In this document: piece after piece, positions 20,586 through 43,147 of the stretch | Numbering within the stretch: the stretch's first letter is position 1 | Layout of the letters: each line of letters begins with the position of its first letter | From: Lepidurus packardi | Lineage: Eukaryota; Arthropoda; Branchiopoda; Notostraca; Triopsidae | NCBI GenBank assembly: GCA_023053545.1 | Contig: JAKZAN010000004.1 | Location: forward strand, 6,696,001-6,760,000 | DNA: 64,000 bases | Reading direction: 5' to 3' | Notes under the pieces: generated by a model | The model's database searches: none | What the model was told of the DNA's origin: nothing | The model's input: only the letters and a program-made list of their open reading frames with translations | Made by a program: the position numbers and the translations under genes

Positions 20586-22247
20586 ATGGATGTATTCCAA
20601 CGAGTAGCGTTTTTTTCTACTCTTTATTTTCTACTTCTAAGTAAGTTATTTTTACATTTTTATTGTTATAAATATTACTAAGTTAAATTAAGAGTTATTT
20701 CTAAAATTGCATTGCTATAAAGGACATGTCAATGGTGTTAGCACCAGTGGTTATCTGCTTATTACAAATGTTTGTTACCAGAACAGTGTTAGTCTAACAG
20801 CTGCGAAAACAGGTGAGTCGTTTTTAATGCACTACATAATTCAAGCTCTGACGATTTTTTTGGGAAAGAGCTTATAAATATGGATGGCTTGGAATGTCGA
20901 AGACAATGTGCTACCAGAGAAAGTTGCAAGGCGTGTCACGTATTCACACACTCTGTCACGAAGAATCAAATTTGTCATTTGTACTTTAACAATCTATGTG
21001 ACACAAACGAAGTAATGATGTACCAAAATTCGTACGTTACCAGTGGTTATATTTGGGAAAAAATCTCCGGAGAGAATATCAACAACGCAACGACCTGTAA
21101 AAACGAACAAAGCTGCGTTATTTCGAATGGATTTCCTACTACAAGCACAGCTAGTTTGCCACCCTCTTCTTTTACTAGTTTCGGTACTTCTGTTACAACT
21201 TCAGGTCAAGTGAGTGGCAGCTCAACGTACGGAAGTACTGCTGGGATTATGACTGGGGCTGCGCTTTTTAATGCTAGTACTTCTCAGACGCCTGTTATTA
21301 TTACCGTTGCTGAAACTAATAATACTGAAAGTACTTTAAGTGCGTCGCCATCGTCGGTAAAAAGCAGTCTAATAGGCAATCAAACCACAGCTACAGCTGC
21401 TGGAAATTCACCAACAGGTGAAAGTACGACGAGTTCCCCTACAACAGCCCCAATACATGCCAGTTCAACAACTGCAACTACAATCTTATCGACAGCTCAA
21501 AACACGATGTCCATTATAAGCGCCTCTACCACAGGGATTCCGACAACTACAGCGAAACCTGCGGAGCCTCGGCCCCGGACTTGTTGGGATTATTATGCAT
21601 ACAATGGAACTCTTGATGGTAAGTTTTCGCTGAAGAGAACAGTTAGGTTCATACTATTTTGTTTAGTACCTGGATATGGAGCACCAAAACCGATATGGCC
21701 CACGGGATTTTCCAACGGAACGAATATTACTGCGTATTGTCGCAACGGCTATACTGCCATTATCCTTAATCACGCCATTCTCGAAGGTTTTTGGCAACAA
21801 TACGATAACAAAAATGACGTTACTGTTTTTGGGTCAACGACTCAAAGGCTCACCAGCACTAACACCACAGGCTGGAATGATTATATTTCAAGTATAAACT
21901 TTTCAATCTTGTCGGACTTAGTCAGGGCTAGCAATCGGACTTTATACTATGAGCAGCAAGGTGATTTTTCAGACGCAGTTGGCATATATTCTGGACTGGA
22001 TATTGCACCTGACGGTACTCTTACCGTCCAAGGAAGTCTTCAAATAGTTAAAGGGTCCCCTTCGAATGGGTTTACTCCGCCTGTCATCAATAGCTCGTGG
22101 GTCAGTGGTACATGCGGATCATCCTTTTGGAAAATACCCGTCACATCAACCGATATCTGCTATCAAGCGACTAACTTCCTTCTGCCAGCTCAGTACCAGG
22201 AAGTTGGCGGAACGAATCGCCGCTTCGTTGGACTGGCTTTTGGATGA
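20586..22247 (+). CDS. Array gene A: secreted PAN-like / Ser-Thr linker / novel C-terminal domain protein
   Basis: Four exons: 20586-20640, 20723-20812, 20869-21618 and 21667-22247, all joined in phase 1; 491 residues. Exon 1 is a signal peptide (MDVFQRVAFFSTLYFLLL). Exons 2 and 3 hold a PAN/apple-like cysteine module of about residues 30-115: C36, then C58, C62, C68, C71 in CRRQCATRESCKAC, and four later cysteines. Residues about 120-275 are a Ser/Thr-rich mucin-like linker with many N-glycosylation sites. The last 205 residues start at TCWDYYAYNGTL and carry WPTGFSNGT, YCRNGYTAI, NDVTVFGS, NRTLYYEQ, YSGLDIAPDGTLTVQG and DICYQ motifs. I do not recognise this domain. There is no membrane segment or GPI tail, so the protein should be secreted. 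Intron 3 is only 48 bp and is open in frame. Confidence 0.85.
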
Positions 22248-22929
22248 AAATAATATTTTTTTTTTGGCGGTCGTCCAATAACTCGATTTATCCCAAGACT
22301 CGATTTACCTTCTTTATATGCTCTTATAACCCTATCGGCACGGATCCTTTTTGGAATATTTTCTTTATCACTGACACGCTTTCTGTAATAAAAAGGCAAT
22401 AATTCATCAGTTAAAAAGCTATAATGGTTGCAAAATTAATTAAGCCCTTTCCATTCAGTCAATCGATGTGCCCATCTAAAAACCACCCACTAAAAACAAC
22501 AATATAACATCCTTCAGTACAAAACATGGAACTTTTAGTGAACCGTCAAGCATGGCAAGTTTAAAATGTCAATATTTCCATCATTATAAAATCGCTTATT
22601 AAAAAAAATTTGACGAACTTACATTATCAACTATCAACTATGTGCATTGAAACCGCAGCCACAGAGATTTTATTGGTTTCCAAAGGCATTTGGACTTAGA
22701 ATTTCGGTCAATCCATCTTCGTCAATTTCGTCAATCCATCAGAATTAGATGTGGCACCACTATTATTAGGTTTCGATAAGTACTTGGAAAAGTACGAAAC
22801 AATCATTAACCTATTGATGAGTCAAATTACCCTATCAATTCTCTACTGCATTTTCATAGGCAAGTTGTACAACTTATCAATAAGGCGATAGAACTTCCCT
22901 AACACGTATAGCAATCTCTCTATATAGCA

Positions 22930-23560
22930 TCCGCTGGTTGAATCAATACCGGTGGTGATTTGCTGGTCATAAATACGTGTTATTGGAACCCTGTTAGTCT
23001 TTCTTCTTCGGAAATAGGTACGTCCACTACTACGGCAAGCTAATTTCTAACTATGTTCTCTGAGAAGAGCAGGTAAACGTGGACGTGCTCCAATGTCGTC
23101 GAAAATGTGTTCTTCTGGAGAATTGCAAAGCTTGTCAGATCTTTACGCATACGCACTCTCTATTTTAATATCACGTTTACAACCTGTACCTAGTCAACGT
23201 ATGCGACTAGATCAACGCAACAATTTACTGGGATTCAAACGTTATCAACGGTTCTATCTGGGAGAAAATTCCCGGTGTTGTAATCAATAATGCTACGGCC
23301 TGTCGCAGTGAAAAAAACTGTATTATAGATACACCCACTACTACGCTTTTAAGGTAAACAGCGGATCCTCGGCCTCGGCCTTGCTGGGATTACTATTTTA
23401 CAACGGCACTCTTGATGGTAAGCGTTAATAGTCTTGTAAAAGAAGCGTTGATTTTTTACAAGAAACAAACGGTTGTTGATTATGCGATTCCACGGCGAAT
23501 CTGGCCCAGGTGGTTTTCCAATGTAGCGAATATGATTGTGTATGGCGTTTCTTTATATAA
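22930..23560 (+). pseudogene. Array pseudogene P1, partner of gene A
   Basis: Remnants occur in the same order as in the intact genes. Exon 2 is at about 22935-23017 (CYWNPVSLSS). Exon 3 is at about 23072-23418, with CRRKCVLLENCKACQIF, IWEKIPGV and CWDYY but several stops and a frame break. The beginning of exon 4 is at about 23470-23550 (IPRRIWPRWFSN). There is no signal exon, almost no linker, and exon 4 is cut short. It closely resembles the broken copy C at 26760-28311, and both sit directly behind an intact gene. Confidence 0.75.
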
Positions 23561-24107
23561 AAGTCTTTATAAAGGATGATCACCATGATAATTATCTCCT
23601 ATTTGTTGTCTATAGTCAATTAAGAATTAATATAATATGCGACATTAATACTTTGCATCTAAACTCCATTGAGCAAAAAGGGTTTAGGTGTATATAGTAA
23701 AATGGTATTAAATTCCTGAATTCATGAATAGTTATGAAAAGGCTACTACGCTTCTTTTCATTTATGTTTCGTTTCTATTAATCTATTCATTTCAGAATAG
23801 AGCGACGAATAAAATCCGGCTTTCATTCTATATAACACACGGGGGGAAGCTTTTAGCACAGCGGGCGATATCGGGGTGACTTGGAGAACTAGTGTAAAAG
23901 GGGTATTCTCACTATAAAGTAATTCCAACGTGATGTGTATGCCCTGCATGTGTCGTAGTTAGTTTCTTTAGCTTTTAGACTATTGTAATGAAACCCTCAG
24001 TTTCCAAAATGGGTATTCATAGGCAAAGCGCTTGTCATTTTCGGTCAGTCCATCTTTGGAACCCAAACGAAGTACGAGTGAGATTTTGAAGTACTGAAGA
24101 AGAAGCC

Positions 24108-25849
24108 ATGAATGTATTCCAACAACTAGCGTTTTTTTCTACTCTTTACTTTCTATTTATAAGTAAGTTATTTTTACATTTGTATTGTTATAAATATTAC
24201 TAAGTTAAATTAAGAGTTATTTCTAAAATGCATTGCTGTAAAGGACATGTCAATGGTGTTAGCACCAATGGTTATCTGCTTATTACAAATGTTTGCTACC
24301 AGAACAGTGTTAGTCTAACAGCTGCGAAAACAGGTGAGTCGTTTTTAATGCACTACATAATTCAAGCTCTGACGATTTTTTTGGGAAAGAGCTTATAAAT
24401 ATGGATGGCTTGGAATGTCGAAGACAATGTGCTACCAGAGAAAGTTGCAAGGCGTGTCACGTATTCACACACTCTGTCACGAAGAATCAAATTTGTCATT
24501 TGTACTTTAACAATCTATGTGACACAAACGAAGTAATGATGTACCAAAATTCGTACGTTACCAGTGGTTCTATTTGGGAAAAAATCTCTGGAGAGAATGT
24601 CAACAACGCAACGACTTGTAAAAACGAACAAAACTGCGTTATTTCGAATGGATTTCCTACTACAAGCACAGCTAGTTTGCCACCCTATTCTTTTACTAGT
24701 TTTGGTACTTCTGGTACAACTTCAGGTCAAGTGAATGGCATCTCAACGTACGGAAGTACTGCTGGGATTATGACTGGGGCTGCGCTTTTTAATGCTAGTA
24801 CTTCTCAGACGCCTGTTATTTTTTCCGTTGCTGAAACTAATAGTACTGAAAGTACTTTAAGTGCGTCGCCATCGTCGGTACAAAGCAGTCTAATAGGCAA
24901 TCAAACCACAGCTACAGCTACTGGAAATTCACCAACAGGTGAAAGTACGACAAGTTCCCCTACAACAGCCCCAATACCTGCCAGTTCAGCAATTGCAACT
25001 ACAATCTTTTCGACAGCTCAAAACACGGAGAGTCCCACTTCTATAATCTCGACATACACCAATCCGAAAATTTCAAATACCACCTCATCAACAATTCAAA
25101 GTACGACGACATCCATTATGATCGCCTCTACCACAGGGATTCCGACAACTACATCGAAACCTGCGGAACCTCGTCCCCGGACTTGTTGGGATTATTATGC
25201 GTACAATGGAACTCTTGACGGTAAGTTTTCGCTGAAGAGAGCAGTTAGGTTCATACTATTTCGTTTAGTACCTGGATATGGAGCACCAAGACTGATATGG
25301 CCCACGGGATTTTCCAACGGACCGAATGTCACTGCGTATTGTCGTAACGGCTATACTGCCATTATCCTTAATCATGTCGTTCTTGCCGGAACTTTTTCAA
25401 CATACGATAACAAAAATGACGTTACTGTTTTTGGGTCTACGACTCAAAGGCTCACAAGCACAAACACCACTGGCTGGAATGCATATATTTCAAGTATAAA
25501 CTTTTCAATCTTGTCTGCCTTAGTCAGGGCTAGCAATCGGACGTTATACTATGAGCAGCAAGCTGATCTTTCAGACGCAGTTGGCATATATTCTGGACTG
25601 GATATTGCACCTGACGGTACTCTTACCGTCCAAGGGAGTCTTCAAATATTTAAAGGGTCCCCTTCGAATGGGTTTTCTCCGCCTGTCATCAATAGCTCGT
25701 GGGTCAGTGGTACATGCGGATCATCCTTTTGGAAAATACCAGTCACATCAACCGATATCTGCAATCAAGCGACTAATCTCGTTCTGCCAGCTCAGAACCA
25801 GAAAGTTGGCGGAACGAATCGTCGCTACGTTGGTCTGGCTTTTAGATAA
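24108..25849 (+). CDS. Array gene B: closest relative of gene A
   Basis: Four exons, all phase 1: 24108-24162, 24244-24333, 24390-25220 and 25269-25849; 518 residues. Signal peptide, PAN-like module (nine cysteines), linker and C-terminal domain are as in gene A and nearly identical to it. The main difference is 27 extra residues in the Ser/Thr linker (ESPTSIISTYTNPK and following), so the linker changes length while both folded modules stay fixed. Intron 3 is again 48 bp and readable. The product should be secreted and heavily glycosylated. Substitutions in the C-terminal domain include GTFSTY where A has GFWQQY, next to the invariant DNKNDVTVFGS. Function is unknown. Confidence 0.85.
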
Positions 25850-26759
25850 AGATAACAAGATTTATTTTGTTATGAAGTTCTCGCATTACCGCAAGACCTG
25901 ACTGCTTTCAGAATTAATTCTAAAATATAATATAATCTATTACTTATTACACGGAAAACGTTATATTAAATCCTGTCTCTCTGAGCACACTTCATTTTCG
26001 ATAGACATAATTTTTACTGTCTTTACCCCAACTATACACCTCACTAAGTATCGTATCTTCTTCACGCAAAGTTTTATCTCCCAAAACTCTTCTTTACGTT
26101 GACAATCTCCAAATGTAAAATCGAATCCCTCTTTACTATTGTATAATTATAGTTTTTTGTTTCTTTTGGAAAATACCCTCAACATCCAAATAATCTATAC
26201 GCTTTTCTAAATTAGTACAGGAATAAGGAAACACTTGTGCTTCAATACCGCATTAGGTTTCCCTTAAATCGACGGGTTATAAATATGAGATATTTCACGC
26301 TGATCCGCTTGTATACGGCCTTCGAAATTTGTATCCTCATTTTTGCAAATGTATTTGAAAGTTGCGTGTTTTCGAACTTCCTTATATTTTCTATACTTCC
26401 TTATATTTTATATATTTTCGAATTACCTTATACAGTATTTACATACTCCTTTATATGTCCTTATAACCTTACCGGCACGGATCCTTTTTGGCATATTTTT
26501 TTTATTCACTGACACGCTTTCAGTCATAAAAAGGCAATAAATCACCAGTTAAAAGCTATAATGGTTGAAAATTTAGCTAAGCCCCTTTCTTTTCTGTCAA
26601 TCGATGTTCCCATTACACCCACTGAAAACAACAATACATACAAAATTCTTCAGTACAAAACATGGAACTTTTAGTGAATCGTCAAGCATGGCAAGTTTAT
26701 AAAGAAAATACTGTACTTCCATCTGGAAAAAATCGCTTATTGACCAAAATTGGAAAAAC

Positions 26760-28311
26760 TTGTATGCCTACGTGCTATCGGAACCCTGTTAGTCTTTCTT
26801 CTTCTAAAATAGGTACTTTCACTAGTACGACAAGCTGATATTTAACGATTTTCTCTAAGAAGAGCTGGTAAACATAGACGTACTTCAATGTCGACGAAAA
26901 TGCGCTCTTCTGGAGAATTGCAAGGCTTGTCAAATCTTTACACACTCTGTATCCCAATATCACGTTTGTAACCTGTACCTAGACAACATATGCGACTACA
27001 GCAACGTAACAATGTACTCTGATTCAAACGTTATCGACGGTTCTATCTGGGAGAAAATTCCCGGTGTTGTAATCAATAATGCGACGGCCTGTCGAAGCGA
27101 AGAAAACTGTGTTATAGATGCACCCACTACTACGCTTTTAAGTGAAACAGCGGATCCTCGGCCTCGGACTTGCTGGGATTACTATTTATACAACGGCACT
27201 TTTGATGGTAGGCGTTAATAATCTTGTAAAATAAGCTTTGATCCTTTACAAGAAACAAATAGTAGTTGATTATGGGACTCCACGACCAATCTGGCGCTCG
27301 GGATTTTCGAATGGAGAGAATAAAACGAAAAGACGAAAAACGTCTAGAAACGAAACGTCTAGAAACGAAAAGACGAAAAAGTAACGAAAAGACTTTCTCT
27401 GCACGTCCTCGCAATGGCATGGCGAGAAGATCCACTTTTTTTGAATCACTTAAGTTATTAAACTTCGCATAGCGATCAAAATGCCTACACCACGCTTCCC
27501 AATCGTCACTCGTACCACTAGAAAAAAATTCTGGTGCGAATTTGGGAGTGCGAATTTCGCTAGCATTTTGTCCTACCGACTGCGCCATTGTAACGCTTTC
27601 GTGCGTAGGCTAAGACTGACTGTATTAAAGTACATGGTTGCATATTTATACCTGGTCAAGAAGGTAAAAGGTTAATTAGTCAGGTCCTGGACGCTTAGTC
27701 AACATGGTCAACGTAGGTCAACCTCTGCATTAGTCACGTAGTCACAGTGTCAAGTCTCAAAGGGAATCAAGGACATAAGGAGGTTACAACATCACATTAA
27801 TTATACTACATATTGCCGCCAAGGTTATACGGCCATCCTCCTTAATTACGCCGTTTTAAGGTTTGGTTACGCCAATCAAAACGATGTTACTGTTTTTGGA
27901 TCGTTTAAGCAAAGGATTGACAAAACCAATACCACTGGTTGGAATGATTATGTATCAAGTATCAACTTCCCCATTCTGTCTGCCTTAGTGCAAATCAGTA
28001 ACCGCACGCTATACTACGAAAACGCAGGAGACATGACGGCTGCTGCTGCTACCTATAGTGGATTAGAAATAGCATCCGATGGTACTTTGACTATCGAAGG
28101 TAGTTTTCAGGTGGTTAAAGGCGCTCCTAAGAATGGCTTTATGCCACCTCTCATCCGCAGCTCGTTTGTGAGTAGCATGTGTGACTCGTTTTGGAGAATA
28201 CCTACGAATTCGACTAACATCTGCAATCAAAAAACGAACATGCTTTTACTATCTGAGATCCAGAGAGTTGCTTCTACTAACTTTCGCTTTGTATCTTTGG
28301 CTTTCAAATGA
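26760..28311 (+). pseudogene. Array pseudogene C, interrupted by a retroelement fragment
   Basis: Exon 2 is partial (about 26763-26811, CYRNPVSLSS). Exon 3 (about 26868-27208) is fully open, from VNIDVLQCRRKCALLENC to CWDYYLYNGTFDG, but has almost no linker. Exon 4 begins near 27268 (GTPRPIWRSGFSNG), is broken at about 27320 by an insertion of about 470 bp, and resumes near 27790, staying open to the normal family end (LAFK, stop at 28311). No signal exon was found. The C-terminal half still looks well preserved, so the insertion is probably not very old. Confidence 0.8.
27320..27790 (-). mobile_element. LTR-retrotransposon gag fragment inserted in array copy C
   Basis: On the minus strand an ORF starts at 27588 with MAQSVGQNASEIRTPKF and has FDRYAKFNNLSDSKKVDLL and LRGRAEKVF. 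This is the start of a Gag polyprotein of Gypsy-like retrotransposons that act on invertebrate genomes. Only the first 65 or so codons remain. Toward lower coordinates it runs into a short tandem repeat built on GAAACGTCTA (about 27325-27395). The sequence to 27790 would be the leader upstream of gag. No LTR, protease or polymerase is present. Limits are inferred from where exon 4 homology stops and resumes. Confidence 0.65.
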
Positions 28312-29299
28312 TCATTTAATAACGTTAACGTAGTCCAGAAATGATTTCCCAAATGAGTTAATATTCAATTATTGAACTTCGTTTGCTGACTTATTCAAAT
28401 TGACTGCTCCGTATGTGGAGACGTGTGTTTCTGTAGTTTTTCGTCCCTAACAAAGACGATTATTTAAGAAGTGCTACCATACATTCTTTAGATCTATAGG
28501 TTATATATGTAATAATGTAAAAAAAAATCAATAGATTGTCGAGAAATATGCGAAAACACTTTGCAAGGGCCCTTTCAGCACGCTAAAACGCTCGTTATTT
28601 ATAATAATATACAGTAGAATAATAATATACAAAGAACCCTCTCAAAATTTTAGTATAGAGAAGCTTTTAGTCGCCAAATGGCTCGAAGGAAAATACAAAT
28701 AATGTAGTAGACACGTTTTCTCATAAAACTGGCTATTTAAGGTGATCTGCCAGAAACGCAAAGCTTTTAAGCTTGGCAAACTATAAGTTCAGACTATGAG
28801 TTGCTAACATAAGTTCAAAATATAATTATATTACAATTAGTCTGACCGATAGATTGCAATTCAATGCAAACTTGGACATATCCTTGGCATTACTACTTTA
28901 CTTTCCATGACTGCATAACTACTTTGATAAATTGTATTTCCCTTAGATATGCTATAGATTTTTAGTTAAAAGCTAATAAACTACTTGGTCCAAAAGTGCA
29001 AACGGCTACGGGCTGTTACCTTACTTAAGCCTCATTCCATTAAAATAGTCGATATTCAGAATAAACACAATAGAAATAACGACAGTACAACCTTTCAATC
29101 TTTAGTACAAATCAGACGATTTTAGCGAGCGAGAAAGGAGGAAGTTTATGGAGCAGACAGGTTACACATAAAATTCGGTCGTTTACTAAGCTGGTACGCT
29201 TTAAGGCTCCGGTTAAGAAGTTTGGTCAGTCCAACTTTGGTTGCCACAAGTAAAACTATATATCAGGTTCCGACCGAAGAGGCTATAGAAATATCAATA
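28312..29299. other. Intergenic, upstream region of gene D
   Basis: No gene is seen here. The part 28852-29180 is a diverged copy of 30882-31200, and both lie just upstream of an intact array gene (D and E). This makes it a likely shared promoter region. Confidence 0.6.
28852..29180 (+). repeat. Duplicated upstream block, copy in front of gene D
   Basis: Similar over about 330 bp to 30882-31200. The best kept stretches are ATGCTATAGATT, AGTTAAAAGCTAATAAACTA, ACACAATAGAAATAAC and, nearest the gene, CGAGCGAGAAAG followed by GTTTATGGAGCAG. The last block may be a regulatory core. Confidence 0.7.
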
Positions 29300-30648
29300 A
29301 TGAATCAGTTCCTAGGCATAGAAAGTATCATCCTTGTAATTTTTTGCTACCTATATTTAGGTGAGTCCTTTGAAACGAGTAAATTTAATTGCTAAGTACA
29401 AAATTTGAATGTTTAATTTAATTGTTAGCGGATGGCACCAGTAATAGCAACAACGGCATACTCTTGGTCACCAGCCTTTGCTATCGGAACAGCGTTGGTT
29501 TAACTGTTCCGAATATAGGTGAGTTTTTCTCTTTTAGGTGGAATTTTTATTTTTACAAAATTTTTCCTACCAGAGCTCATAAACGTGAACGAATTGCAAT
29601 GTCGAAGGCATTGCGCTGTGCGCGAGAGTTGCAAGGCTTGTCAAGTGTTTATCCACTCCACTATCCAGCAGCGTCACGTTTGCAATCTGTACCTAGGCAG
29701 CATATGTGACTACAGTACCGTAACCATGTACTATAATTCAAACGTTGCTAACGGTACCATCTGGGAGAAGATTTCCGGCAACAGCATTAACAATGCTAGA
29801 ACTTGTACTAACCAAACAATTTGCAATTTTGCAACATCACTCCCCAGTATGAGCACTTCAAATGCGCCACTGCAAACAAAACAAACTACAAGCGTTACCA
29901 CCGTTACTACTGTTACTAGCAGTTCAGTGGTTGAGACTGCAACGCAGAAACCGGCGGAATCTCGACCTAGAACTTGCTGGGATTACCATTTACTTGACAG
30001 CACTTTTGAGAGTAACTTTTTTCTGAGAGTAAGAAGAGAAGGATTTTTTTTACCTTATTCATGTTCTTTGTAGATTTGGCTGTTCCACGAACCGTATGGC
30101 CTACGGGATTTTCGAACGGGACAAGCATTACAGTATATTGCAAAAATGGATACACGGTTATCCTCTCAAATTTTGCAAAATTAATTGTTTCGTTAGACCC
30201 GTATGTAGGGAATGAAGTAACGGTTTTCGGATCCACGACTCAAACAATAAACAAAGACGATCATATTGGCTGGAACAGTTATGTATCCAACATTAATTTC
30301 CCAATATTATCCGCTTTAGTCCGAATCAGTGACCGCACACTATACTATGAACAAGTTTTGGGGTGGCCATTTGAAGCAGGTACATATTCCGGACTGGACA
30401 TTACACCCACCGGGACCCTGACTGTCGAGGGTAATATCCAAGTGGCTTCTTCGCTCAGTACTCCGCCAGATATGTTTCCGCCGCCTCTTATCAACAGCAC
30501 ATTCGTCAATAGTACCTGTGGGTCTTTCTGGAAAATACCTACAACCTCAAGCGATATTTGTACTCAAACAACTAATATGCTTTTACTTTCTGGAGATCAA
30601 AAAGTCGCCGGAAGGCCAAGGTCCTTTATCACTCTTGCTTTTAAATAA
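29300..30648 (+). CDS. Array gene D: secreted PAN-like / novel C-terminal domain protein
   Basis: Four exons, all phase 1: 29300-29360, 29429-29518, 29574-30011 and 30074-30648; 387 residues. The signal peptide is MNQFLGIESIILVIFCYLYL. The PAN-like module has CYRNSVGL in exon 2 and CRRHCAVRESCKACQVF in exon 3, with all nine cysteines. The linker is short, about 50 residues rich in Thr and Ser (TSVTTVTTVTSSS). The C-terminal domain keeps TCWDYH, WPTGFSNGT, YCKNGYTVI, NEVTVFGST, TLYYEQ and YSGLDITPTGTLTVEG. Intron 3 (62 bp) is not frame-preserving. It is a subfamily I gene, clearly diverged from A and B, and probably secreted. Confidence 0.85.
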
Positions 30649-31200: not shown

Positions 31201-31343
31201 GTTCAGAAAGTTGGGTATCGGCTTAATGCCATTGATCAACGTTGAGTGCAATTTACTATAAAGCTTTCCATAAGACTATGTTCAGAATTCTGGTCAGTTG
31301 AACTTCGGATCTCCAACGTGGTATGAGTTTGTCAAAGTCCGTC

Positions 31344-32787
31344 ATGAAAAGAGTCAAGAGCCTATTCATAGGCCAAGTCGTTCTAGCAACTTTTTTTGGA
31401 CTGGTTTTAAGTAAATTTTCATCTAACATAAATTTTACATCTAACATATTGTTTTCTTAAAAAATTACATTAATTTCTAGCCCCCGTTCATAGTATCGAA
31501 ACAAGTGGTAACACACTGATCACCAACACGTGCTACCGGAATGCTGTGGGTCTATCTGCTCCAAAAATAGGTGAGTTTTTCCTTACAAGAAATTAAAATT
31601 CTAAGAAGAATGTACCTGAAAAGAATTCGTGAACATGGATGCATTGCAATGTCGAAGACAATGCGCTACCCGGGAGAGTTGCAAGGCCTGTCACGTCTTC
31701 ACGCACTCGGTAATCCAAAACCAAGTTTGCCATCTGTACCAAGATAATATATGTGACAACGTAACAATGTACTATAACTCAAACGTGATGGATGGTTCGA
31801 TATGGGAAAAGATTTCCGGAAATGAAACCAACAACGTGTTCACGTGTCGTAATGACGGAAACTGCGATATCTCTCCGGAAATACCAACTATTGCTGCACC
31901 CAGTTTCAGTATTTCAATAAGTGTAGGTACTTTCGGTGGTACTTGGAATGAAACAGAAGGTTTCTCATTTGAATCTACAACAAATGCTGGGATAACGTTC
32001 AATAATGAAACTAGCCCACCACTGACAACGATAAATTCGGCGAATCCGGTCACAACAGAGGTACCAGTGGAAACACGACCACGGACTTGTTGGGATTACT
32101 ATGTACTTAACGGCACTCTTGACAGTAAGTTATGTTTTTGAACAAGTTCAAGTAAGAAATGTTTTTGAACAAGTCCAAAATTTTAAAATTATAGGTGGAT
32201 ATGGAACTCCACGGCCAGTATGGCCCTCCGGATTTGCCAATGGAACGAACATTACTGTATATTGTAAGCTAGGTTATACGGCCATCCTCATTAATTATGC
32301 CGTCTTGAGTACTGCTTGGTTGAACCCTTACGACAACAAAAACGACGTTACTGTTTTTGGATCTTTGAAACAAAGAATTGACACTACTAATAAGGCTGCT
32401 TGGAATGCTTATGTATCAGGGATCAATTTCCCCGTTCTGTCCTCTTTAGTGCGAATTAGTAACCGTACATTATACTACGAGAACGCCGGCGATCTTTCAG
32501 ATGCGTCCTGCACGTTCGCCGGACTTGATATAACACCTGATGGAATACTTTCCGTCGAAGGTAGTCGTCAAACAATTAGCGGAATCCCACCATACTTTTC
32601 TGGACTGCCAGTTATCAACAGCTCATTCGTAAACAGCACGTGCGGGTCTTTTTGGAGATTACCTGCAACATCTACAGACATCTGTAACCAAGAAACGAAC
32701 ATGCTCTTGCTAACTGATTGGCAGAAAACCGGCACTTGTTACAGCACTCAATGCTTTAATCGTTTCGTCGCCTTGGCTTTTAAATAA
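31344..32787 (+). CDS. Array gene E: secreted PAN-like protein with extra C-terminal cysteines
   Basis: Four exons, all phase 1: 31344-31410, 31481-31570, 31624-32124 and 32195-32787; 416 residues. The signal peptide is MKRVKSLFIGQVVLATFFGL. The PAN-like module has CYRNAVGL in exon 2 and CRRQCATRESCKACHVF in exon 3. The linker is less Thr-rich and includes acidic and Phe residues (GGTWNETEGFSFEST). The C-terminal domain keeps WPSGFANGTN, YCKLGYTAI, NDVTVFGS and DICNQ. It has three extra cysteines: one in DASCTFAGLD and two in GTCYSTQCF, an insertion just before the conserved end. This is the most cysteine-rich intact copy in subfamily I, possibly with a different disulphide pattern. Confidence 0.85.
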
Positions 32788-34099
32788 CAACAATGAATCC
32801 AATTACCACGACACCCTCTAAGAACCTCTAAGCACCCTCCTAAGGGTTTACCTCTAAGCACAAAAACCTTCGAGTCTATCTAGTACTAACGTCTCTTGTT
32901 TTGAATTACGATTAAGGATCCCATTCAGCTTAGCTTGTCACAGCCTATAGCTACACCGAACGTATTTTGTACGGTTCTGTATAAACGCGCAAGGAACTTG
33001 TTTATGCGTATAAAATGGCATGTAGGATACCTTTATAAAGAATTAAATCAATTTCCGTTCATTTGTTTCCTTTTCAAGAATTCAGTAAAAATATTGTCCA
33101 GGGCCTGGCAGTTTCCAAATTCTCAATTTTCCTTTTTTTCGCTAAGGTGGAAATTTAAATTGCATTTTTGAAATTAAGAAAAGTGAAAGCTGACATTCTT
33201 TTAGCATTCACATTATACCTACATTATATTCAATTATTACTGTCAAAACCTTGTGTACTTCTTATGTAAGAGTGCTTCTGAATTTCTATATATGCCGGGC
33301 AGAATAAAACCATGTAAGATTGCAAACCATACAGTAAACAACCGCATCATAACTGGGTTTCTTTACTTCTAGATACTACTGTTGGTTTCAAGTGACCTTT
33401 ATCGAAGCGTTGGCCTTGACTAATTCTAGGCCCTTGTGAATTTTTGCAAGTTTGGGAAGTGGGCGGGGGTAGGGGGTCGTGGTAAAGGTCGAGGCCATGG
33501 CAATTGAAGGGCCAACGTTGTGAGGAGGCTTCTTATTTTGGATTGCAAGGTCAGCTAGTACAAAAAGGCAGGCTAAGGTAAAGAGCAAGGCAGTGAAGCC
33601 TGAGTGCAGAGCAATACAAGCATTCAACTCGAACCATCCTGCAACAATATCAATTTGGTTTGTTTTTGCCTGACTAAGGTGCATTTAGATTGCACGATCT
33701 TTTGATGTCTTCTGATTGCTGGTATATAGAATAGAATATCCATAAACCCCAGATAAAAGGTACTAAACGACAACCAGCCGTTCGTTCTCTACACTACTTT
33801 GTATATTAAGCCATTTCATACTAGCAATAAATACCAAAGAAATATGATAATAACACCTTTTAAGCTAATAATGTAAACTCGGAAGCTTTTCGTCGTAAAA
33901 CGAGTAAAGCGTCAAAGGAATAAAAGGAGACTGAATCACTTTTGCTATAAAAAAAATGCTGAATATTACAAGGCTTAACAATACAAGGCTTACTCTTCAG
34001 GTGCGTCTTCAGGATATCGGTCAGTACAACTTGGAATCTCGCCAACGCAGTACAAGAGCAAGACTTGGAAGGATTATACTGAATCAAAGCACATCAAAC
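32788..34099. other. Intergenic between genes E and F
   Basis: No supported gene. A 98-codon minus-strand ORF (33388-33684) starts with ATG and has one strongly hydrophobic stretch followed by a basic Pro-rich tail. It is noted as a finding but not called. Confidence 0.45.
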
Positions 34100-35463
34100 A
34101 TGAACCCAATCCTAGCGATCACCTGGACAATTTCCTGTCTGTTTTTAAGTAAGTTTAATTGTTAAAACTTAATTACTAAGTAGTTTATTATGTAGTACCC
34201 GCCGATGGCATTAGCACGAACGGTTTCCTCCTAATCACAAACGCCTGCTACCAGAAAAGTGTTAGACTATATTCTTCAAAAATAAGTTAGTTGGTTACTT
34301 TGCTGAATATAGTTTTCTGATTAATTTTTGCCGGAAGCTCTGCTGCATATTAATGCCTTACGCTGTCGAAGGGATTGTGCAATTCGGGAGAGTTGCAAGG
34401 CTTGCCAAGCATTCAAGCATTCCATTTGGCGCTCCCAAGTTTGCATTTTGTATCTAAATAACTTATGCGACTACGATCAAGTATCGATGTACTACGATCT
34501 AAATGTTAGCGAGGGATTCATCTGGGAAAAGGTTTCCGGTGATAATATCAACAATGCAAAGACTTGCTACAGCGAAACAAACTGTTCCATCTCTACAGCA
34601 ATACCTATCATGAACGAGATTAGTCCAACATGGTCCTATGCCCAAAACATCGTAACAGACAACCAAACAATAAACACCCCCAAAGTGACGAATGCTTTTG
34701 CTAACACATCATTAATGCAGACGACTACGTCTAGTTCAGCTAGTTCTGCCTCAATGTCAACAATTCAGACTACAACCCAAAAACCTGTGCAGACTAAGCC
34801 CCGAACATGCTGGGATTATTACGCTTACAATAGGACTAACGACAGTAAGTTTTTATTCGAAAAAAAAATTAACTTCTTTATTACTAATTTATAGCATCGT
34901 TTCCAAATGCACGGTTGATATGGCCTACGGGCTTTCCTAACGGAACAAGTATGACAGTGTATTGTCGAAATGGTTATACGATCATCTTCTCAAATTACGC
35001 CGCACTAGTAAAATGGGGGTATGACAATAAAAATTATGTTACGGTTTTTGGATCCACCACACAAGTGATCGCCACAACCAACACGACTGGCTGGAAAGCT
35101 TATGTATCCAATGTGGATTTTCCCACCCTGTCCACCTTGGTCCGGATTAGCAATCGTACCCTGTACTACGAGCAAGGCTGGGATTCTGTAGATGCAACTG
35201 GCACGTACTCTGGACTAGATATTGCGCCTGATGGAACTCTAACAGTCCAAGGGAATTTAGAAGTGGTTAGAGGCTCCCCATCAAATGGATTTTCCCCGCC
35301 TCTCATCAACAGCCCGTTTGTCAGCAGCACGTGTGGTTCTTTCTGGAAAATACCAACAACGTCAACAGACATTTGCAATCAAATTACTAACATTCTATTG
35401 CTAGCAGAGAATCAGAAAGTTGGCGGAGACAATCGCCGATTTATCACCCTTGCTTTCACATGA
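34100..35463 (+). CDS. Array gene F: secreted PAN-like / novel C-terminal domain protein
   Basis: Four exons, all phase 1: 34100-34148, 34196-34285, 34338-34844 and 34895-35463; 404 residues. The signal peptide is short (MNPILAITWTISCLFL). The PAN-like module has CYQKSVRL in exon 2 and CRRDCAIRESCKACQAF in exon 3, with nine cysteines. The linker is Ser/Thr-rich (SSSASSASMSTIQTTTQ). The C-terminal domain has TCWDYYAYNRTND, WPTGFPNGTS, YCRNGYTII, VTVFGSTT, TLYYEQGW and YSGLDIAPDGTLTVQG. Introns are very short (46 to 52 bp). The acceptor before exon 3 has a weak pyrimidine tract. An AATAAA follows six bases after the stop (35469-35474), so the 3' UTR may be very short. Confidence 0.85.
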
Positions 35464-36251
35464 ACATCAATAAATTCGTGTATAATATTACCGAAAACTT
35501 GCACGCGCAAGCATTCCCTTTACGCAAAAATAGTCCATTTAGCCTCTGTGGTGTGTACAAGCTCTCTATAGTTTCGTAATTTGGTTAAAGAGTGATGTTG
35601 TTTAAATACACGGAATCTGTCCAACTCTGCACTTCTTCTCCTTCTAATAAGGCAGAGATTTACACAGTAAAATACAACACTAAATTGGCCAAAAAAAGAA
35701 GTAACTCCTGACAATGACGAATGGAATGAATGGATGAATTGATCAAGGGTCTCTTTCCCTGCACAAAAAGTGGAGATATACGTATCTAGCTCTCAGTATT
35801 TTTATCACCTTCCTCAAGAAAAAGAACATTCGTGAGGAGCACGGCCAGGTATGCCGTACACGTGCCAGTCACAACCACATGTAATTTATGTGACCCTCAT
35901 GCAAAACAATACTTTGGTACTTGCCCTGGCGTGAATCTCTCTTGAAGAATGCGGGCAACCTGTCCTTTAATCATGCTGTTATAGCCTACTAAACACGAAT
36001 AAATACATTACTAGTTAAAAATAATGTGACTTTTATTCAGCGTCTCCTATATTGTCAACAAAAGAACCCGTGCTGACGACACTCTTCACGTCACGTACAT
36101 GATTTGAGGCATCCGCCAGCATCGCTGCGCCTTTTCTTATGCGAAAAAACAATTCTATCCGACACAGTTACTCTTGAGCCTCGTATGTAAAGGTGTGCAA
36201 GCTTCCAACCAGCGGCGATAGATTGTATTTGACTGGGCGGGATTTGCAGCA
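35464..36251. other. Intergenic between genes F and G
   Basis: Holds an early polyadenylation signal for gene F (AATAAA at 35469). No other feature is recognised. Confidence 0.5.
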
Positions 36252-37637
36252 ATGTTATCGGTTTCTCTTTTGCGGGTTAAACTTTTACTTTGTCTACCGT
36301 TCGTTACCAGTGAGCTTGGAAATTTCTTTTTGACCGGTCCTACATTTCAACCTAATGTAATCCTAGACACCACATTCCGCGGTACAAATTGCCAATACGC
36401 TCATTCCTTGATAAGAAATTTCATTTTTATAGCATTATACAACTTGAACGATGTCGACTGTAGACGGAAATGTGCGATATCAGAATCATGCCAAGCTTAC
36501 TTGTCCTTCATCAGTCTCACCACGCAATTACAAAGCTGCCATCTATTTCAAGACCGAAATTGTTACCTAAACAATAGCAACACGGTACCAGCCCAAATAG
36601 TCAGCGATCCACAAGTCCAGAATGGTATGCTTTGGCAAAAGGTACCGGGCAGCCTGGTACCCATACGTTTAGGGGAATGTTCAGTAGTAGATCCAACAAC
36701 AACGCAAACTAGTACGCTACCTACTTTGACAACCATCGTTAGTTCTGATAGTCCATCAACACCAGTCGTGTCCTCGTCCGACACATCATCAACCGTGGCC
36801 TCTACTGGGAGTACTCCTATCAATACTAGCTCTGTTAAACTCCCAACTACTGCTTCTGCTACTTTTAGTACTGTATTGCCAACAACACCTGGAGCTCTAC
36901 GTCCGAGGACTTGTCATGATTACGAAATAACAGGCTACAACGACAGTAAGTTTTAACAAGTTAATTCCTGGGATTCGAAAGAAGATGTCTTATAAAACTA
37001 TCGAAATTCTTGTACTTTTTCAGCTCTTTGGACTCTGCGACCACTTTGGCCTTGGGCGGCAATTAACTCCACTGTGATCAATTCCACATATGCGTATTGC
37101 AGATTTGGCTACACTGCTATACTGAGAAATTTCCCTTATTATTACGTCCAGGGAAAAGGCGGATACGCGGATCAGCAATACTTCTTCCCATTTCCTTCCT
37201 TGTTGCCGGATGGAGACACTGTTACTTCTACAAACCTCTCCGGATGGACTAACTCCATTCTAAAGCTAAATTTCCCGCTTTTGTCCGCGTTAGTGCAAAG
37301 TTCCGGTAGAGTATTGCTATTTGAAGGTTATGATAAAATTAATGGAGTATATAAGTCTTGCACCTATTCTGGCCTGGATATTGGACCACAAGGAGCCTTG
37401 ACAGTACAGTCGTATATTTCCAACCCACTCGCTTCATTAAACGCTCCAGATGGCCTATATCCTCCCCTGATTAACGCCCCGTTTGTAACTAGTACTACCT
37501 CATTCTGCAGTTCATTTTGGAAAATACCAGTCAATTCCACCGACATTTGCAATCAACGAACGAACCTACTTTTAATGAGTGAATTTCAGAAGTTTGGCAG
37601 CCTTAGCTATACACAAGTCACATTGGCTTTTAAATAA
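36252..37637 (+). CDS. Array gene G: subfamily II secreted protein
   Basis: Three exons, phase 1: 36252-36381, 36433-36945 and 37024-37637; 418 residues. The signal sequence (MLSVSLLRVKLLLCLPFVTS) and the small second module (GNFFLTGPTFQPNV) lie in one exon, so intron 1 of subfamily I is absent. The exon 2 cysteine is missing, and the exon 3 motif reads CRRKCAISESCQAYLSF, with Tyr in place of the fourth cysteine. The linker is Thr/Ser-rich. The C-terminal domain is the most diverged of the array: TCHDYEITGYND, LWPWAAINST, YCRFGYTAI, a different segment where others have NDVTVFGS, then SCTYSGLDIGPQG and DICNQRTN. The 51-bp intron after exon 1 is readable in frame, so an unspliced product is conceivable. 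Confidence 0.8.
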
Positions 37638-38571
37638 GACATTCACCTATGTTATATTCCTATATTATATGCAGTTTATCAGCCTATACCACATGGCAAG
37701 CTTATTCGCTTTATGTTACGATTGCGATCAATACTCGGTTGCTAACCACCACAGGTGTACCGGAAAGCAAAATACATTATATTCACACAAAAGGTGACCC
37801 GCTAATAAACCTAAGGCAACACAAAAGACCACTTTTAACACGCTTTTTCACGCACAAAAGCCGCATAAAAAGAATAGAAGTTCGGGAACACGTGACACAC
37901 ATAATCTGCCATGTACAGTACATGTAATGTACATGTACAGTACAGCCTACACCGATTTGGGAAGGAATCTGAAAAAGCTCACAAAATTTCTAGAAAACAA
38001 TTAATAAATCCTAGTGTCTCTTCCTAAATGCATTACACGTTACGTTTCATCACCTGGAAATTACTTCATTTTCTCGCCGATTTCTTACACCTCACGAATT
38101 CCTCAGATTACTAAAACAATAGACTTACTTTAGACATAAATAAAAATCAACCACAAGCCTTCTTCCAGAAATATACTCAAGAAGCATAGATTTCTTACTC
38201 GGTGAACTGAGAATAAATATTCTGTTCTGTCTCACAGTCTATAGAAAGGACGCCTAGTAGGAACGTTAATGGAGAATTTATTACACGGCAACCATTATTA
38301 GTCGCTCTTACAGAGTGAATCTAGCAGCATGTCCTTCCAACTACCCATTGTTCTTTTGGAAAGACAGACAACTACAGGAATCCTGATAAGACAAAGGTGA
38401 TAGGTATGATACCAATAGGACAAAAAGCAAAACAGACCACACCAAAGAACCAGTGTCAAGCACACATCTGTTTTAGCACATTTGTCGAAAAGCGACAATC
38501 TTTTATTATTTCGAACACCAATGCCAGTAAGACTACCTCGTCAGTACATAACTGTGCCGTAAAGGAAAAGG
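37638..38571. other. Intergenic between genes G and H
   Basis: No gene recognised. A short palindromic stretch built on GTACATGTAC lies at about 37911-37945. Confidence 0.45.
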
Positions 38572-40193
38572 ATGTCTGCGAATGCTGTTTTCGTATACGT
38601 GCTAAGTACAATACACATTTTAACTTTTCCCTTCGCAAACAGCTCATCAGTATCCGTGGTTAATTGTGAAATCTCATCGACGGGGCAATTTTTCGTGACA
38701 AATGCGTACTATCAATCTCTCGCATCGCAAACCACCAATGCAGAAGGTATAATATACAATATGTAAAGTACACAGAGGGGCTTTTTTAATGTTTTTCAAA
38801 AAAGCGGAATATTCAATTAACACTTATGCATTAAAAGGAAGTAGGTTTACGTTGAATGAAGTGGGACTAAAACGGGACCGTAAACTTTTCATTCAATTGG
38901 TCGGAATATTCAAATAACCGTTTTTCAAATAATTGGAGTCCACTGTATTCATAAAATTAACTATTATATGAAATATTGAAATACTGTATACAAGGGAGAC
39001 TAACAATTTTCATATTGTTTAAGCTTTGGTGTACGTAGATGAGCATCAATGCCGAAGACAATGTGCAATATCAGAAACGTGTCAAGCATATTTAACCTTC
39101 ACGGACGTCCTCCCAGTGCTCGGAACATGCTACCTGTACGATAGAGACGTTTGCGTAACAGACCCTAATTTGCTTGGGATAAATGCGAATGTCCTTGCGA
39201 GCAAGTTATTAAGCAAGGTACCCGGTGACCAAGAACCCCGACCTTGCAATACTTCGTCAGACGGGAGCATGACTATTGCCACTCCAGCTCAGACGGAGGC
39301 ATTAACTATGCCTTCCACAGACAATACTACTATTGCAACGACAACATTACTTACGACTGTTTTTTCAGACTTGTCGAACAACTCAGCAATCCCAGGAGTA
39401 TCTACCAGTGAAAGCGTGGGAAGTCCAAATTTAATGGAGAGTACCACGGTTGCAATGGTATTTCCTCCCAACAGTACCACCATAGTACCTCCAGAGCCTC
39501 GGCCGAGGACTTGCTGGGAATACTACACAATGCTTAACGCTACAGACAGTTAAGTTTTTAATTTACAAGCTTTGAACATTTTTTCAAGTTTTTTCGTGAT
39601 TTTACTTACCTAATTTATCATATACAGAAGGAGATTGGTACTTGAGATTGGTCTGGCCTTCTGGGTTTTCGGATGGGGCTAATATTAGCGTGTACTGCCG
39701 AAATGGCTACACACTTATCCTTTCCAACTATGCAGTTATTAGTCAAAAATACGCAAAGAAAAACGACGTGACCGTTTTTGGCTCTTTGACTAAAACAATA
39801 CGCACCAACAACAACGATATCTGGAATGATTACGTATCTAGTATCAACTTTCCAATCTTGTCCAGCTTGGTCGGTATCAGTAACCGCGAACTCTACTACG
39901 AGAGCTCTGGGGATTTAAAGAACGAATTTACCAGTTATTCCGGGCTGGATCTTGCAGCTGATGGTACTTTAACTATCCAAGGTAGTCTTCAAGGGGTCAA
40001 AGGCTACCCACCGAACGGGTTTCTAGTGCCTCTCGTTAACAGCCCGTTTGTCAGTAGTACTTGTGGATCTTTTTGGAAGATACCTGCTACATCGACTGAT
40101 ATATGTAGCCAAACGACGAACATGCTTTTGCTATCAGAGTACCAGAAAGTAAACGACAACGATCGTCGATTAGTTGCGCTGGGTTTTAAGTAA
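38572..40193 (+). CDS. Array gene H: subfamily II secreted protein
   Basis: Three exons, phase 1: 38572-38746, 39024-39548 and 39628-40193; 421 residues. Signal sequence and second module are in one exon (MSANAVFVYVLSTIHILTF, then GQFFVTNAYYQS), with Tyr where subfamily I has Cys; another Cys is nearby in VVNCEIS. Exon 3 has CRRQCAISETCQAYLTF, GTCYLYDRDVC and a Thr/Ser-rich linker. The C-terminal domain is typical: TCWEYYTMLNATD, WPSGFSDGAN, YCRNGYTLI, NDVTVFGS, YSGLDLAADGTLTIQG and DICSQ. Exon 3 ends at a GTTAAG donor, weaker than its neighbours. The first intron (277 bp) is enlarged by a probable small transposon (38771-38945). AATAAA occurs near 40231. Confidence 0.8.
38771..38945. mobile_element. 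Probable short Tigger-like MITE in gene H intron
   Basis: The right end reads CAGTGGACTCCAATTATTTG on the minus strand and is followed by TA, like the ends of pogo/Tigger elements. The left end (near 38771, after TA) is only weakly similar. Internal GGAATATTCAATTAA and GGAATATTCAAATAA blocks are repeated. About 175 bp, no coding capacity. Confidence 0.35.
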
Positions 40194-40749
40194 CCCGACA
40201 AGAAATAGTTATAAAGATCCTATTATAGGTATAATAAACGATGCTTTATGTCTTATGGTCTTGAGTTTAACCAACTTTTCAATTGTTTTTCTTTCTATCG
40301 CCACAAAGTGTTAACTTATCCACAAACCCAAGACATGAATATGCTTTTTATCTAATATTAATGCATGAACCACCATGAGCAACTACAACTCCGAGTTTGC
40401 TTTACTTACTTCGTATTTTGTTAAGTTTTTATGTGGGTGGCTCCTTTTGGAAATAAGAATAATGTCGCCCAGGTTCATTTGGACACTGAACGCTGTCCTA
40501 TGCGTATATAACTGGGACAAGACGCGTAGTGCTTTTGAGTGGGAAAAAATAAAAACAGCAATAAATGTTCACAGCTAAGACATAAAAGTAGCATTCTCTA
40601 TTCTATTAGCATCTTGCTCCTCCGAATCCTTTGAATCTGGTAGTCGACATGAATTTGGCAACTTCTGTGTTTGTCACAAATTTCCTTTTTCAGTCCAAGC
40701 TTAATACAGCTTTATTACATAGAAATAAGTATTCTAGACATTAAGAAGA

Positions 40750-41450
40750 CAGTTTGTCTTTATTTGCAGCACTGGGTTATGTAGGCCAACTCACTACCGA
40801 AGGAAATGTGCAGTTTTACAAACCTGCATTGCTTTAGTAACCTTCAAGAAGAACTTTCCATCTTACAGACCTTCAATAACGTTTGAATATTTGACAGGCC
40901 TCTTTGGGGGTCAATGTGAACATTCTGCAGAGTAAGCTCTGCGAAAAGTTACCAGGCAACCAGTTACTAAAGACTTACAACGCTACAACTGACGAGAACA
41001 TGGATACTGCCACGCAAACTGAAAGATTAGCATTTATTCCAATCATGCCCTACACTGAAAGTTTCACAAAATCAATCAGCGTCAATGAACACCATGAATA
41101 AAGGGTTTATAATTTCAGAAACAGCAACGATAGCAGTAGTCCGCCCCAGACGCTTCAATTTCAAATATTTCTGCCAAGTATTACGGTGGAGCGTAGGCCA
41201 CGGAGTAACTCAGATTATAATATGTTAAATGTTGTAGTTTATAGAAAGTATTGAAAGTGAGAGGTTTTACACGGTTTTTTGTCTAATTTAAATCCTGAAA
41301 CTCGTCACAATTGTCTTGGGCGTACGAAGGAATTGGGTCCAGTATTACCGTGTAATGCCGAAACAACTACAAGCTAATCCGAAATTATTATCTCTCTCTA
41401 GGCCAAAGTAGTGACCAAATTACGTTCCATGTGGCTCCTAGTAAAGGTAC
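40750..41450 (+). pseudogene. Array pseudogene I, decayed subfamily II copy
   Basis: Scattered remnants appear in order. An exon 2-like piece (GNVQFYKP) lies near 40800. An exon 3-like piece at 40904-41101 (VNVNILQSKLCEKLPGNQ) parallels INANVLASKLLSKVPGDQ of gene H and leads into a residual linker. An exon 4-like piece lies at about 41335-41390 (SSITV, stop, CRNNYKLI). Most of the cysteine module and nearly all of the C-terminal domain are gone. Confidence 0.6.
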
Positions 41451-41528
41451 TTAAATATTCATCCATATGCTAGTAGTGTAGAACAGTATTCCATAGATGC
41501 AAAAAGTCATTGAAGACACGCCCCACCT

Positions 41529-41596
41529 GTAGTAGACATTCATTGCCACCGAAGTGGCAATTAATGTCTACCGAAGTGGCAATTAATGTCTACTAC
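41529..41596. repeat. Short inverted repeat with internal tandem copy
   Basis: GTAGTAGACATTCATTGCCAC at 41529-41549 is mirrored with two mismatches by 41576-41596. Between them lies a tandem 22-bp repeat (CGAAGTGGCAATTAATGTCT twice). It could fold into a hairpin or be the remains of a small foldback element. Confidence 0.6.
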
Positions 41597-41858
41597 AAAA
41601 ATGCAAAAAAGGTCCGAAGCAAAATTCTGTTACATGTGGAACATATGAATGTAGTAGTAAAAGCTAGCTAAGAAAGAGAACGTGGAAGTAACAGATCGAG
41701 AGTTGGCGAACAAAATAATGTAACTAAAAAAGAAACAAGAATGGGGAGGGGAAAATTATTTATTACAGAGGTCGAATATAATAAGAATTAAGAACTTCTT
41801 TATATGCGGCAGCCTGTACTGGTTTTCTCATTGTAGAACTGTAAACCATACGAGGAGG

Positions 41859-43147
41859 ATGAACGGAAAAATTGCTCTAGCTTGTGTGATAGTGTGCATC
41901 TTATTTGAATCGTCTTTTCGACAAGCTCAGAGCAGTAGCAGTACCATCAGCTCTACAACTAAAGGACACTTCTTTGTAGTGAATCCTAATTATAATCCGA
42001 ATGGTATAATGGCGAATGCCAATTTTTCTTCACTTAAGTAGACCGAAATCCTACGAAACCAACAAGAATTTTATACATAGCTGAATCTAAATCGAATTGT
42101 TTTTTATCCGCAGTTTCAACGCATATAAATGAGCTTCAATGTCAAAGAAGATGCGCAGTATCTCAGTCATGTCAAGCCTATTTTGCGTTCACGATTGCTT
42201 TTTTAGCAAGGAAGACTACTTGTTACCTTTACATGGTTAAGAATTGCGTACCAGAACAAATTTTTATAGCACTTAATGGAAGCATCGTACTAGGCAGACT
42301 TTGGAATAAGATCAAAGGGGACCTAGTGCCACAAACTTGCCTTCAAAATCTGAACACAACTACAGCGAGCACGTTGGCTATGTCGCCAACGGCAAGCACA
42401 CATACAATTACTGCGAGTAACACTACATCTGCGACAGTAAGTATAACTTCTGAGCAGCCTGCGGAACCAAGACCACGGACTTGCTGGGACTACTATGCAT
42501 ACAATGGAACTCTTGACGGTAAGTTTTCGCTGAAGAGAGCAGTTAGGTTCATACAATTTTGTTTAGTACCTGGATACGGAGCACCAAGACCGATATGGCC
42601 CACGGGATTTTCCAATGGAACGAATATTACTGCGTATTGTCGTAACGGCTATACTGCCATTATCCTTAATCAAGCCGTTCTTGCCGGAACTATTTCAACA
42701 TACGATAACAAAAATGACGTCACTGTTTTTGGGTCAACGACTCAAAGGCTCCCCAGCACAAACACCACTGGCTGGAATGCATATATTTCAAGTATAAACT
42801 TTTCAATCTTGTCGGCCTTAGTCAGGGCTAGCAATCGCACGTTATACTATGAGCAGCAAGCTGATTATTCAGACGCAGTTGGCATTTATTCTGGACTGGA
42901 TATTGCGCCTGACGGTACTCTTACCGTCCAAGGGTATTTTCAAATAGTTAAAGGGTCCCCATCGAATGGGTTTACTCCGCCTGTCATCAATAGCTCGTGG
43001 GTCAGTGGTACCTGCGGATCATCCTTTTGGAAAATACCCGTCACATCAACCGATGTCTGCAATCAAGCGACTAACCTCCTTCTACCAGCTCATTACCAGA
43101 AAGTTGGCGGAACGAATCGCCGCTTCGTTGGTCTGGCTTTTAGATAA
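41859..43147 (+). CDS. Array gene J: chimeric secreted protein (subfamily II front, gene A/B-type back)
   Basis: Three exons, phase 1: 41859-42003, 42114-42518 and 42567-43147; 376 residues. The front is subfamily II. The signal (MNGKIALACVIVCILFESSF) shares an exon with GHFFVVNPNYNPN, there is no exon 2 cysteine, and exon 3 reads CQRRCAVSQSCQAYFAF. From about 42485 (TCWDYYAYNGTLDG) through exon 4 and the 3' flank to about 43637 it is nearly identical to gene B (25188-26343), including the same 48-bp in-frame intron. The linker is short and Thr/Ser-rich. The join lies at the conserved PRPRTCWDYY segment, as expected for gene conversion or unequal crossing over. The reading frame is open throughout, so the chimera is probably expressed as a secreted protein. 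Confidence 0.85.

Follow-up and report, generated by a model that had tools for sequence, protein, structure and literature searches.

We analysed a window of 64,000 nucleotides from the notostracan Lepidurus packardi, positions 6,696,001-6,760,000 of contig JAKZAN010000004.1 (C3 among the contig labels C1, C2 and so on; assembly GCA_023053545.1, 108.56 Mb in 344 contigs). Window positions 20586..43147 hold a tandem array of eight intact spliced genes (A, B, D, E, F, G, H and I), with uninterrupted frames of 376 to 518 residues, whose predicted products are secreted proteins ending in a domain that may be a strongly diverged fibrinogen-related domain (FReD). A first-pass annotation made from the sequence alone had proposed eight intact genes and at least four relics. 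Spliced models were obtained for all eight genes, the first start (20586) and the last stop (43147) falling where expected, while the number of relics comes down to three when matches outside the gene models are searched for with tblastn (E<=0.01). The array is composed as follows:

20586..22247, + strand: gene A, 491 residues; exons 20586-20640, 20723-20812, 20869-21618 and 21667-22247 (spliced model, alignments)
22918..23567, + strand: relic 1 of the family (tblastn E 6.5e-27)
24108..25849, + strand: gene B, 518 residues; exons 24108-24162, 24244-24333, 24390-25220 and 25269-25849 (spliced model)
26796..28308, + strand: relic 2, one split copy (tblastn)
29300..30648, + strand: gene D, 387 residues; exons 29300-29360, 29429-29518, 29574-30011 and 30074-30648 (spliced model)
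31344..32787, + strand: gene E, 416 residues; exons 31344-31410, 31481-31570, 31624-32124 and 32195-32787 (spliced model)
34100..35463, + strand: gene F, 404 residues; exons 34100-34148, 34196-34285, 34338-34844 and 34895-35463 (spliced model)
36252..37637, + strand: gene G, 418 residues, divergent; exons 36252-36381, 36433-36945 and 37024-37637 (spliced model)
38572..40193, + strand: gene H, 421 residues; exons 38572-38746, 39024-39548 and 39628-40193 (spliced model)
40798..41029, + strand: relic 3, strongly decayed, H-like (tblastn E 5e-8)
41859..43147, + strand: gene I, 376 residues, chimera; exons 41859-42003, 42114-42518 and 42567-43147 (spliced model)

There are three exons in G, H and I and four in each of the other five genes. 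GT...AG borders are present at all 21 introns of the eight models, and every one of them is in phase 1, as calculated from exon lengths, so that modules could be exchanged without breaking the frame. In gene A, the PAN-like module occupies exons 2 and 3, the Ser/Thr linker exon 3, and the C-terminal domain exons 3 and 4. The last intron of A, B and I is 48 bases long and open in frame, which is why a plain list of open reading frames (ORFs) runs through it; its counterpart in gene E contains a stop. In relic 2, the PAN-like module and the start of the C-terminal domain (26796-27339) are separated from the remainder of that domain (27799-28308) by a stretch of about 460 bp that does not resemble the family.

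All eight genes show the layout read by the first-pass annotation: the signal peptide is followed by a PAN-like module, which a Ser/Thr-rich linker connects to the C-terminal domain. Each protein has a hydrophobic N-terminus, and beyond the signal peptide the highest mean hydrophobicity over 19 residues is 1.38, so that no membrane anchor is present, as that annotation had also proposed. The linkers measure 50 to 193 residues with a Ser, Thr and Pro content of 36 to 57%, and there are 5 to 11 N-glycosylation sequons per protein. The C-terminal domain comprises 204 to 219 residues, and in an alignment of the eight sequences, where the motifs listed beforehand (such as TCWDYY and DICNQ) were all recovered, identity to the domain of gene A is 44 to 90%. 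Seven N-terminal modules of the window were compared with Pfam, gene B being omitted as near-identical to A: five match PAN_1 (best E 3.9e-4) and three match PAN_2 (best E 8.2e-4). Like the PAN/apple domain (PF00024, PF08276), the module is rich in cysteines; its match to PAN is weak but repeated.

The array proved to be one cluster of a larger family. The genome has about 39 loci with a near-complete C-terminal domain, spread over six large contigs:

C3, window: 8 genes and 1 relic
C6, 10.097-10.133 Mb: cluster of 13 loci, 2 with an internal stop
C4, 6.994-7.011 Mb: cluster of 6 loci
C4, near 13.2 Mb: 2 loci
C2: 2 loci
C5: 1 locus
Singles: 6 loci (one on C1, three on C3, two on C4)

This count includes near-complete domains only, the weakest of which (E 0.006-0.5) were accepted on reading their translations, and at least five additional family fragments exist. 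For this, the genome was searched with the domain of gene E (31 matches), a C6 member (38) and a C4 member (28); many of these matches are repeated loci or second exons. A Cys-rich N-terminal module precedes the domain at those loci whose upstream sequence was inspected. By eye, the linkers of the C6 and C4 clusters seem short and Cys-rich rather than Ser/Thr-rich.

The statement that the C-terminal domain could not be matched to a known family stood as far as Pfam is concerned: the profile check gave no strong match to a described family, and no Pfam family is common to 18 members. It did not stand entirely, as relatives probably exist among FReDs, by way of the C4 and C5 paralogues. A profile search of the PDB gave nothing for alignment A1, and for alignment A5 four weak matches to microtubule-associated and T-cell-receptor chains (E 0.18-0.69), which we take as chance. 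In a protein collection, no match was obtained at E<=0.01 with the gene E domain (432 candidates) or at E<=0.1 with an 18-row alignment (962 candidates); this collection is apparently poor in animals, since the neighbouring DOP1 gene gave just two relatives there, and the absence therefore weighs little. Eight pattern matches were found in viral contigs, none of which is a relative. DUF281 (E 0.0036 and 0.004) was matched by one member only, and VP1_protrusion (E 0.0066), Gp10A-like, Ion_trans_N, CoV_S1_C and others by single members; all these matches were below cut-off and not shared, and were dropped.

The similarity to FReDs lies in the core of the domain, and is visible in the C4/C5 branch. 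A block reading roughly L.IEL...TATYSGF...LSLG.F..GTAGDGL in these paralogues is like the FReD block LRVEL.D...A.Y.SF...Y.L..G.Y.GNAGDSL. Using hhalign, we compared family profiles with FReD profiles made from FReD genes of the same genome together with ficolin, FGL1 and angiopoietin segments. The C4/C5 branch scored 43.0 (4 sequences against 5), 39.6 (8 against 5) and 39.2 (8 against 11), where column-shuffled decoys reached maxima of 21.2 (100 decoys), 18.0 (60) and 24.6 (60), and a reversed profile 13.1. When each of the eight C4/C5 sequences was left out in turn, the score remained between 37.6 and 42.0, and mixed sets that included C4/C5 scored 28.1 to 30.8, with decoy maxima of 18.0 to 20.5. 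Taken singly, FReD sequences scored 17.1 to 29.8 against the C4/C5 branch, on overlapping columns in 11 of 11 cases; nine of them exceeded all of 71 natural decoys, likewise taken singly, which were translation chunks unrelated to the family (highest score 18.8), and two did not (L081, 17.1; angiopoietin-1, 18.3). In an hmmsearch with the FReD profile and filters off, the top four rows were three C4 sequences, one of them twice (E 0.0047-0.062), above all shuffled sequences; the best 30 rows included neither the fourth C4 sequence nor any window gene. The window branch in turn aligns with the C4/C5 branch at 97.2% hhalign probability (P 3.3e-11) over an overlapping core, and with the C6 branch at 99.7%, both pairs having been run without decoys. 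These comparisons link the C4/C5 core to FReDs and the window core to C4/C5.

The cysteines give a separate indication. Between the second and third cysteine there are 122 to 126 residues in seven of the eight window genes and 136 in G, as compared with 122 to 124 in the reference FReDs L079, L088 and L082 (the last two assembled from exon pieces) and in two ficolins, and 131 in L081. The distance from the third to the fourth is 14 to 15 residues in all eight window genes versus 13 in FReDs; in tachylectin-5A, Cys206-Cys219 has this same 13-residue spacing, according to the part of PMC1242226 cited here. From the first to the second, the window branch has 34 to 36 residues, more than L079 (24) or L081 (at most 32). 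The cysteines of the C6 branch also fit, with 118 to 124 residues between the second and third cysteine and 12 to 16 between the third and fourth.

How the copies of the array diverge can be followed in several places. A and B are near-duplicates, upstream sequence included. Gene I shares 91.5% identity with B across 1185 bp (42458-43639), from the end of the linker through the last intron and the last exon into some 490 bp of the 3' flank, and its PAN-like module is 31% identical to those of A and B and 40 to 41% to those of G and H. Gene I is thus a chimera, with a 5' half whose PAN-like module is closest to G/H, and a B-like 3' half and flank. The gene G segment (35979-38531) has two copies on C2, at 96.4 to 96.5% identity, each with a 417-residue frame intact. 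They lie within two regions that are 99.4% identical to each other, C2:7294348-7297947 (L016) and C2:7535212-7538808 (L018), and both are flanked by inverted repeats of about 150 bp, which have 23 near-complete matches in the genome, six at these loci and 17 elsewhere. This looks like gene capture by a composite element or one resembling a miniature inverted-repeat transposable element (MITE). The ratio of non-synonymous to synonymous substitution rates (dN/dS) was computable in 21 of 56 pairs and is 0.11 to 0.43 for the PAN-like module and the C-terminal head. For the linker of A and B it is 1.5, at a dS of merely 0.036, and we do not claim positive selection.

Taken together, we consider that the array encodes secreted glycoproteins made of a signal peptide, a PAN/apple-like module, a Ser/Thr linker and a strongly diverged FReD-like head, and belongs to a family of about 39 loci that evolves by tandem duplication and domain swapping. 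Observed directly are the gene structures, the weak but repeated PAN match, the secretion signal without an anchor, the genome-wide family, the similarity of the C4/C5 core to FReDs and of the window core to C4/C5, and the exchange of halves seen in gene I; the FReD fold of the window domain is supported, not proven, and to the description as a whole we give an even chance.

A number of results weigh against it. Compared directly with FReDs, the window branch scored 14.3, with decoys up to 19.0; because it stays in the decoy range when taken alone, the window genes are tied to FReDs through the C4/C5 intermediates only. The C6 branch (16.1 and 13.8), the singles (12.1 and 14.0) and the combination of window, C6 and singles (16.3 and 13.4) are likewise within decoy ranges. 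The cysteines of the C4/C5 branch do not fit FReDs, with 99 to 114 residues between the second and third and 12 to 26 between the third and fourth, a weakness in that the core match (C4/C5) and the cysteine match (window) sit in different branches. Fibrinogen_C (PF00147) was absent at E<=10 in the 18 members and in four C4/C5 sequences. Hallmark motifs of FReDs, which we ran as patterns on 28 sequences of the about 39 loci, were missing: GGGW, FWxG, the calcium loop, NCA and GGWW each occur in 0 of 28 family sequences and GFG in one, whereas the motifs are present in 8 to 11 of 11 FReDs (calcium loop 10, GGWW 11). The domain is therefore not a canonical FReD, and binding of acetyl groups through the calcium-associated pocket is not expected. 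AlphaFold models had mean pLDDT (predicted local distance difference test) values of 42.3 and 32.0, too poor for use. At the other end of the protein, no displayed window match exceeds the PAN cut-offs (21.4 and 21.1 bits), and just one of five N-terminal pieces from loci outside the window has a PAN match. Finally, many dS values are saturated, and dS is below 1 in just four of the 21 dN/dS estimates (those of 0.24-0.43).

Three other explanations were considered. The C-terminal domain could be a beta-rich extracellular domain in its own right, one that the libraries do not contain, and its resemblance to FReDs in a single block of 47 to 63 columns could be convergent or a shared local motif. 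Such a domain would account for a local alignment that covers the core block alone, for the lack of FReD hallmarks and of any common Pfam family, for the failure of sets deprived of C4/C5, and for the unfitting C4/C5 cysteines. It accounts less well for scores far above those of shuffled and reversed decoys, for nine of 11 single FReDs exceeding all natural decoys with all 11 on overlapping columns, and for cysteines that fit FReDs in both the window branch and the C6 branch. We regard it as a serious possibility, of less than even probability. The opening of the domain, 'TC.DY...G.LDG', had at first pointed to the GON domain (PF08685; ADAMTS9/gon-1 type), which its first 40 residues resemble. 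The GON sequence of this genome (a single one, joined from exon pieces) scored 12.1 to 16.8 against the family sets, within the decoy range, and all GON matches in the genome (best E 4.2e-22) fall within a single gene at C4:5.948 Mb; a GON identity is thus highly improbable. These matches, at C4:5947761-5948565, are the sole ones of the genome and presumably mark one ADAMTS9/gon-1-like gene.

The third explanation concerns function, and is compatible with FReD homology or with its absence: the proteins may be secreted components of an eggshell, cyst wall, cuticle or adhesive, with Ser/Thr linkers serving for hydration or cross-linking. A signal peptide without an anchor, linkers of such composition, numerous sequons and many copies are all consistent with this. 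The divergence of the heads (44-90% identity to gene A) is more like that of recognition paralogues than of dosage copies, which is not decisive, and we find a structural role somewhat unlikely. The first-pass annotation had suggested recognition or defence. This suggestion is favoured by the FReD link, because the sections cited of PMC5877582, PMC1242226 and PMC7858579 describe FReD families of invertebrates as serving recognition and agglutination; defence stays conjectural.

If the FReD-like reading holds, the head would bind the ligand, the linker would form a glycosylated stalk, and the PAN-like module would bind a partner or a glycan. The array may diversify since its proteins would recognise variable surfaces, most likely of microbes, and they would act like other invertebrate fibrinogen-related lectins, minus the canonical calcium/acetyl site. 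The shrimp lectin PmFREP is reported, in the portion of PMC7858579 used here, to bind N-acetyl sugars independently of calcium although its site is conserved; a missing site therefore does not exclude sugar binding. More broadly, we tentatively see here a branch of the fibrinogen superfamily unlisted in the libraries searched, which would have lost the calcium/acetyl motifs, acquired a PAN module together with a mucin-like or Cys-rich linker, and reached about 39 loci in one pancrustacean. Recombination in the linker would swap PAN modules and heads, inverted-repeat elements would carry intact copies to another chromosome, and the result would be a diversifying recognition repertoire on a re-purposed lectin fold. 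This fuller scenario is less likely than not.

The family resembles FReD proteins such as ficolins, tachylectin-5A, PmFREP and mosquito FREPs in being secreted, in its C-terminal domain of about 200 residues, in the four-cysteine spacing of the window branch, in the core block via C4/C5, and in its tandem clusters, as described for Anopheles in the text cited of PMC1242226. It differs from them by the absence of the calcium loop, GGGW, FWxG, NCA and GGWW (28 of 28 sequences), by the lack of a Pfam match, and by the lack of direct significant similarity in the window branch. PAN and fibrinogen domains in one protein are reported in molluscs (Biomphalaria FREP1, some Lottia FReDs), as excerpted from PMC7588048, where the Biomphalaria protein also has an immunoglobulin (Ig) domain; the family described here has a Ser/Thr- or Cys-rich linker, a diverged head and no Ig match. 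A literature search for PAN with fibrinogen-related proteins in crustaceans returned no papers. The canonical FReD genes of the same genome, at about eight loci on C2, C3 and C4, would belong to the same superfamily if homology holds, but lie at other loci and match Fibrinogen_C strongly (best E 3.1e-31).

Other features were seen in the window and elsewhere in the genome:

6691-7770, + strand: 359-residue ORF with a full-length match to DDE_1 transposase (E 8.8e-43)
14831-16264, - strand: ORF with a match to the DOP1 TPR domain (E 8.6e-70), a conserved gene upstream of the array
57306-63966, - strand: ORF of a PIF1-like helicase whose tail is endonuclease-like, perhaps a Helitron

An ORF next to the helicase has no Pfam match and is single-strand-binding-like by eye. 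There are 41 COX1 matches genome-wide, many of which are nuclear copies or pieces of mitochondrial cox1 (for example C6:697216-698557, C4:0.79-1.53 Mb and C38), and some copies keep neighbouring genes and tRNAs in order. In one of these, L041, the order is trnI, trnQ, trnM, nad2, trnW, trnC, trnY, cox1, trnL(UUR), cox2, trnK, trnD, atp8, atp6, with tRNAs from ARAGORN in mitochondrial mode and protein genes read by eye from translations; a Val call within its cox1 was taken as spurious. A tRNA-Leu between cox1 and cox2 is a mark of Pancrustacea. COX1 frames without internal stops on the small contigs C52, C214 and C43 probably come from bacteria associated with the animal.

Gene I is a clean example of domain swapping located in the linker. 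Should the FReD link fail, the domain would define a new extracellular family represented about 39 times in a single genome, at least as interesting. If the FReD link is true, a large family invisible to Pfam would be placed in a known recognition superfamily, and the C4/C5 branch would provide the profile for finding it in other pancrustaceans. It would also show to what extent the FReD fold can drift away from the calcium-associated acetyl pocket while being kept as a multigene secreted family.

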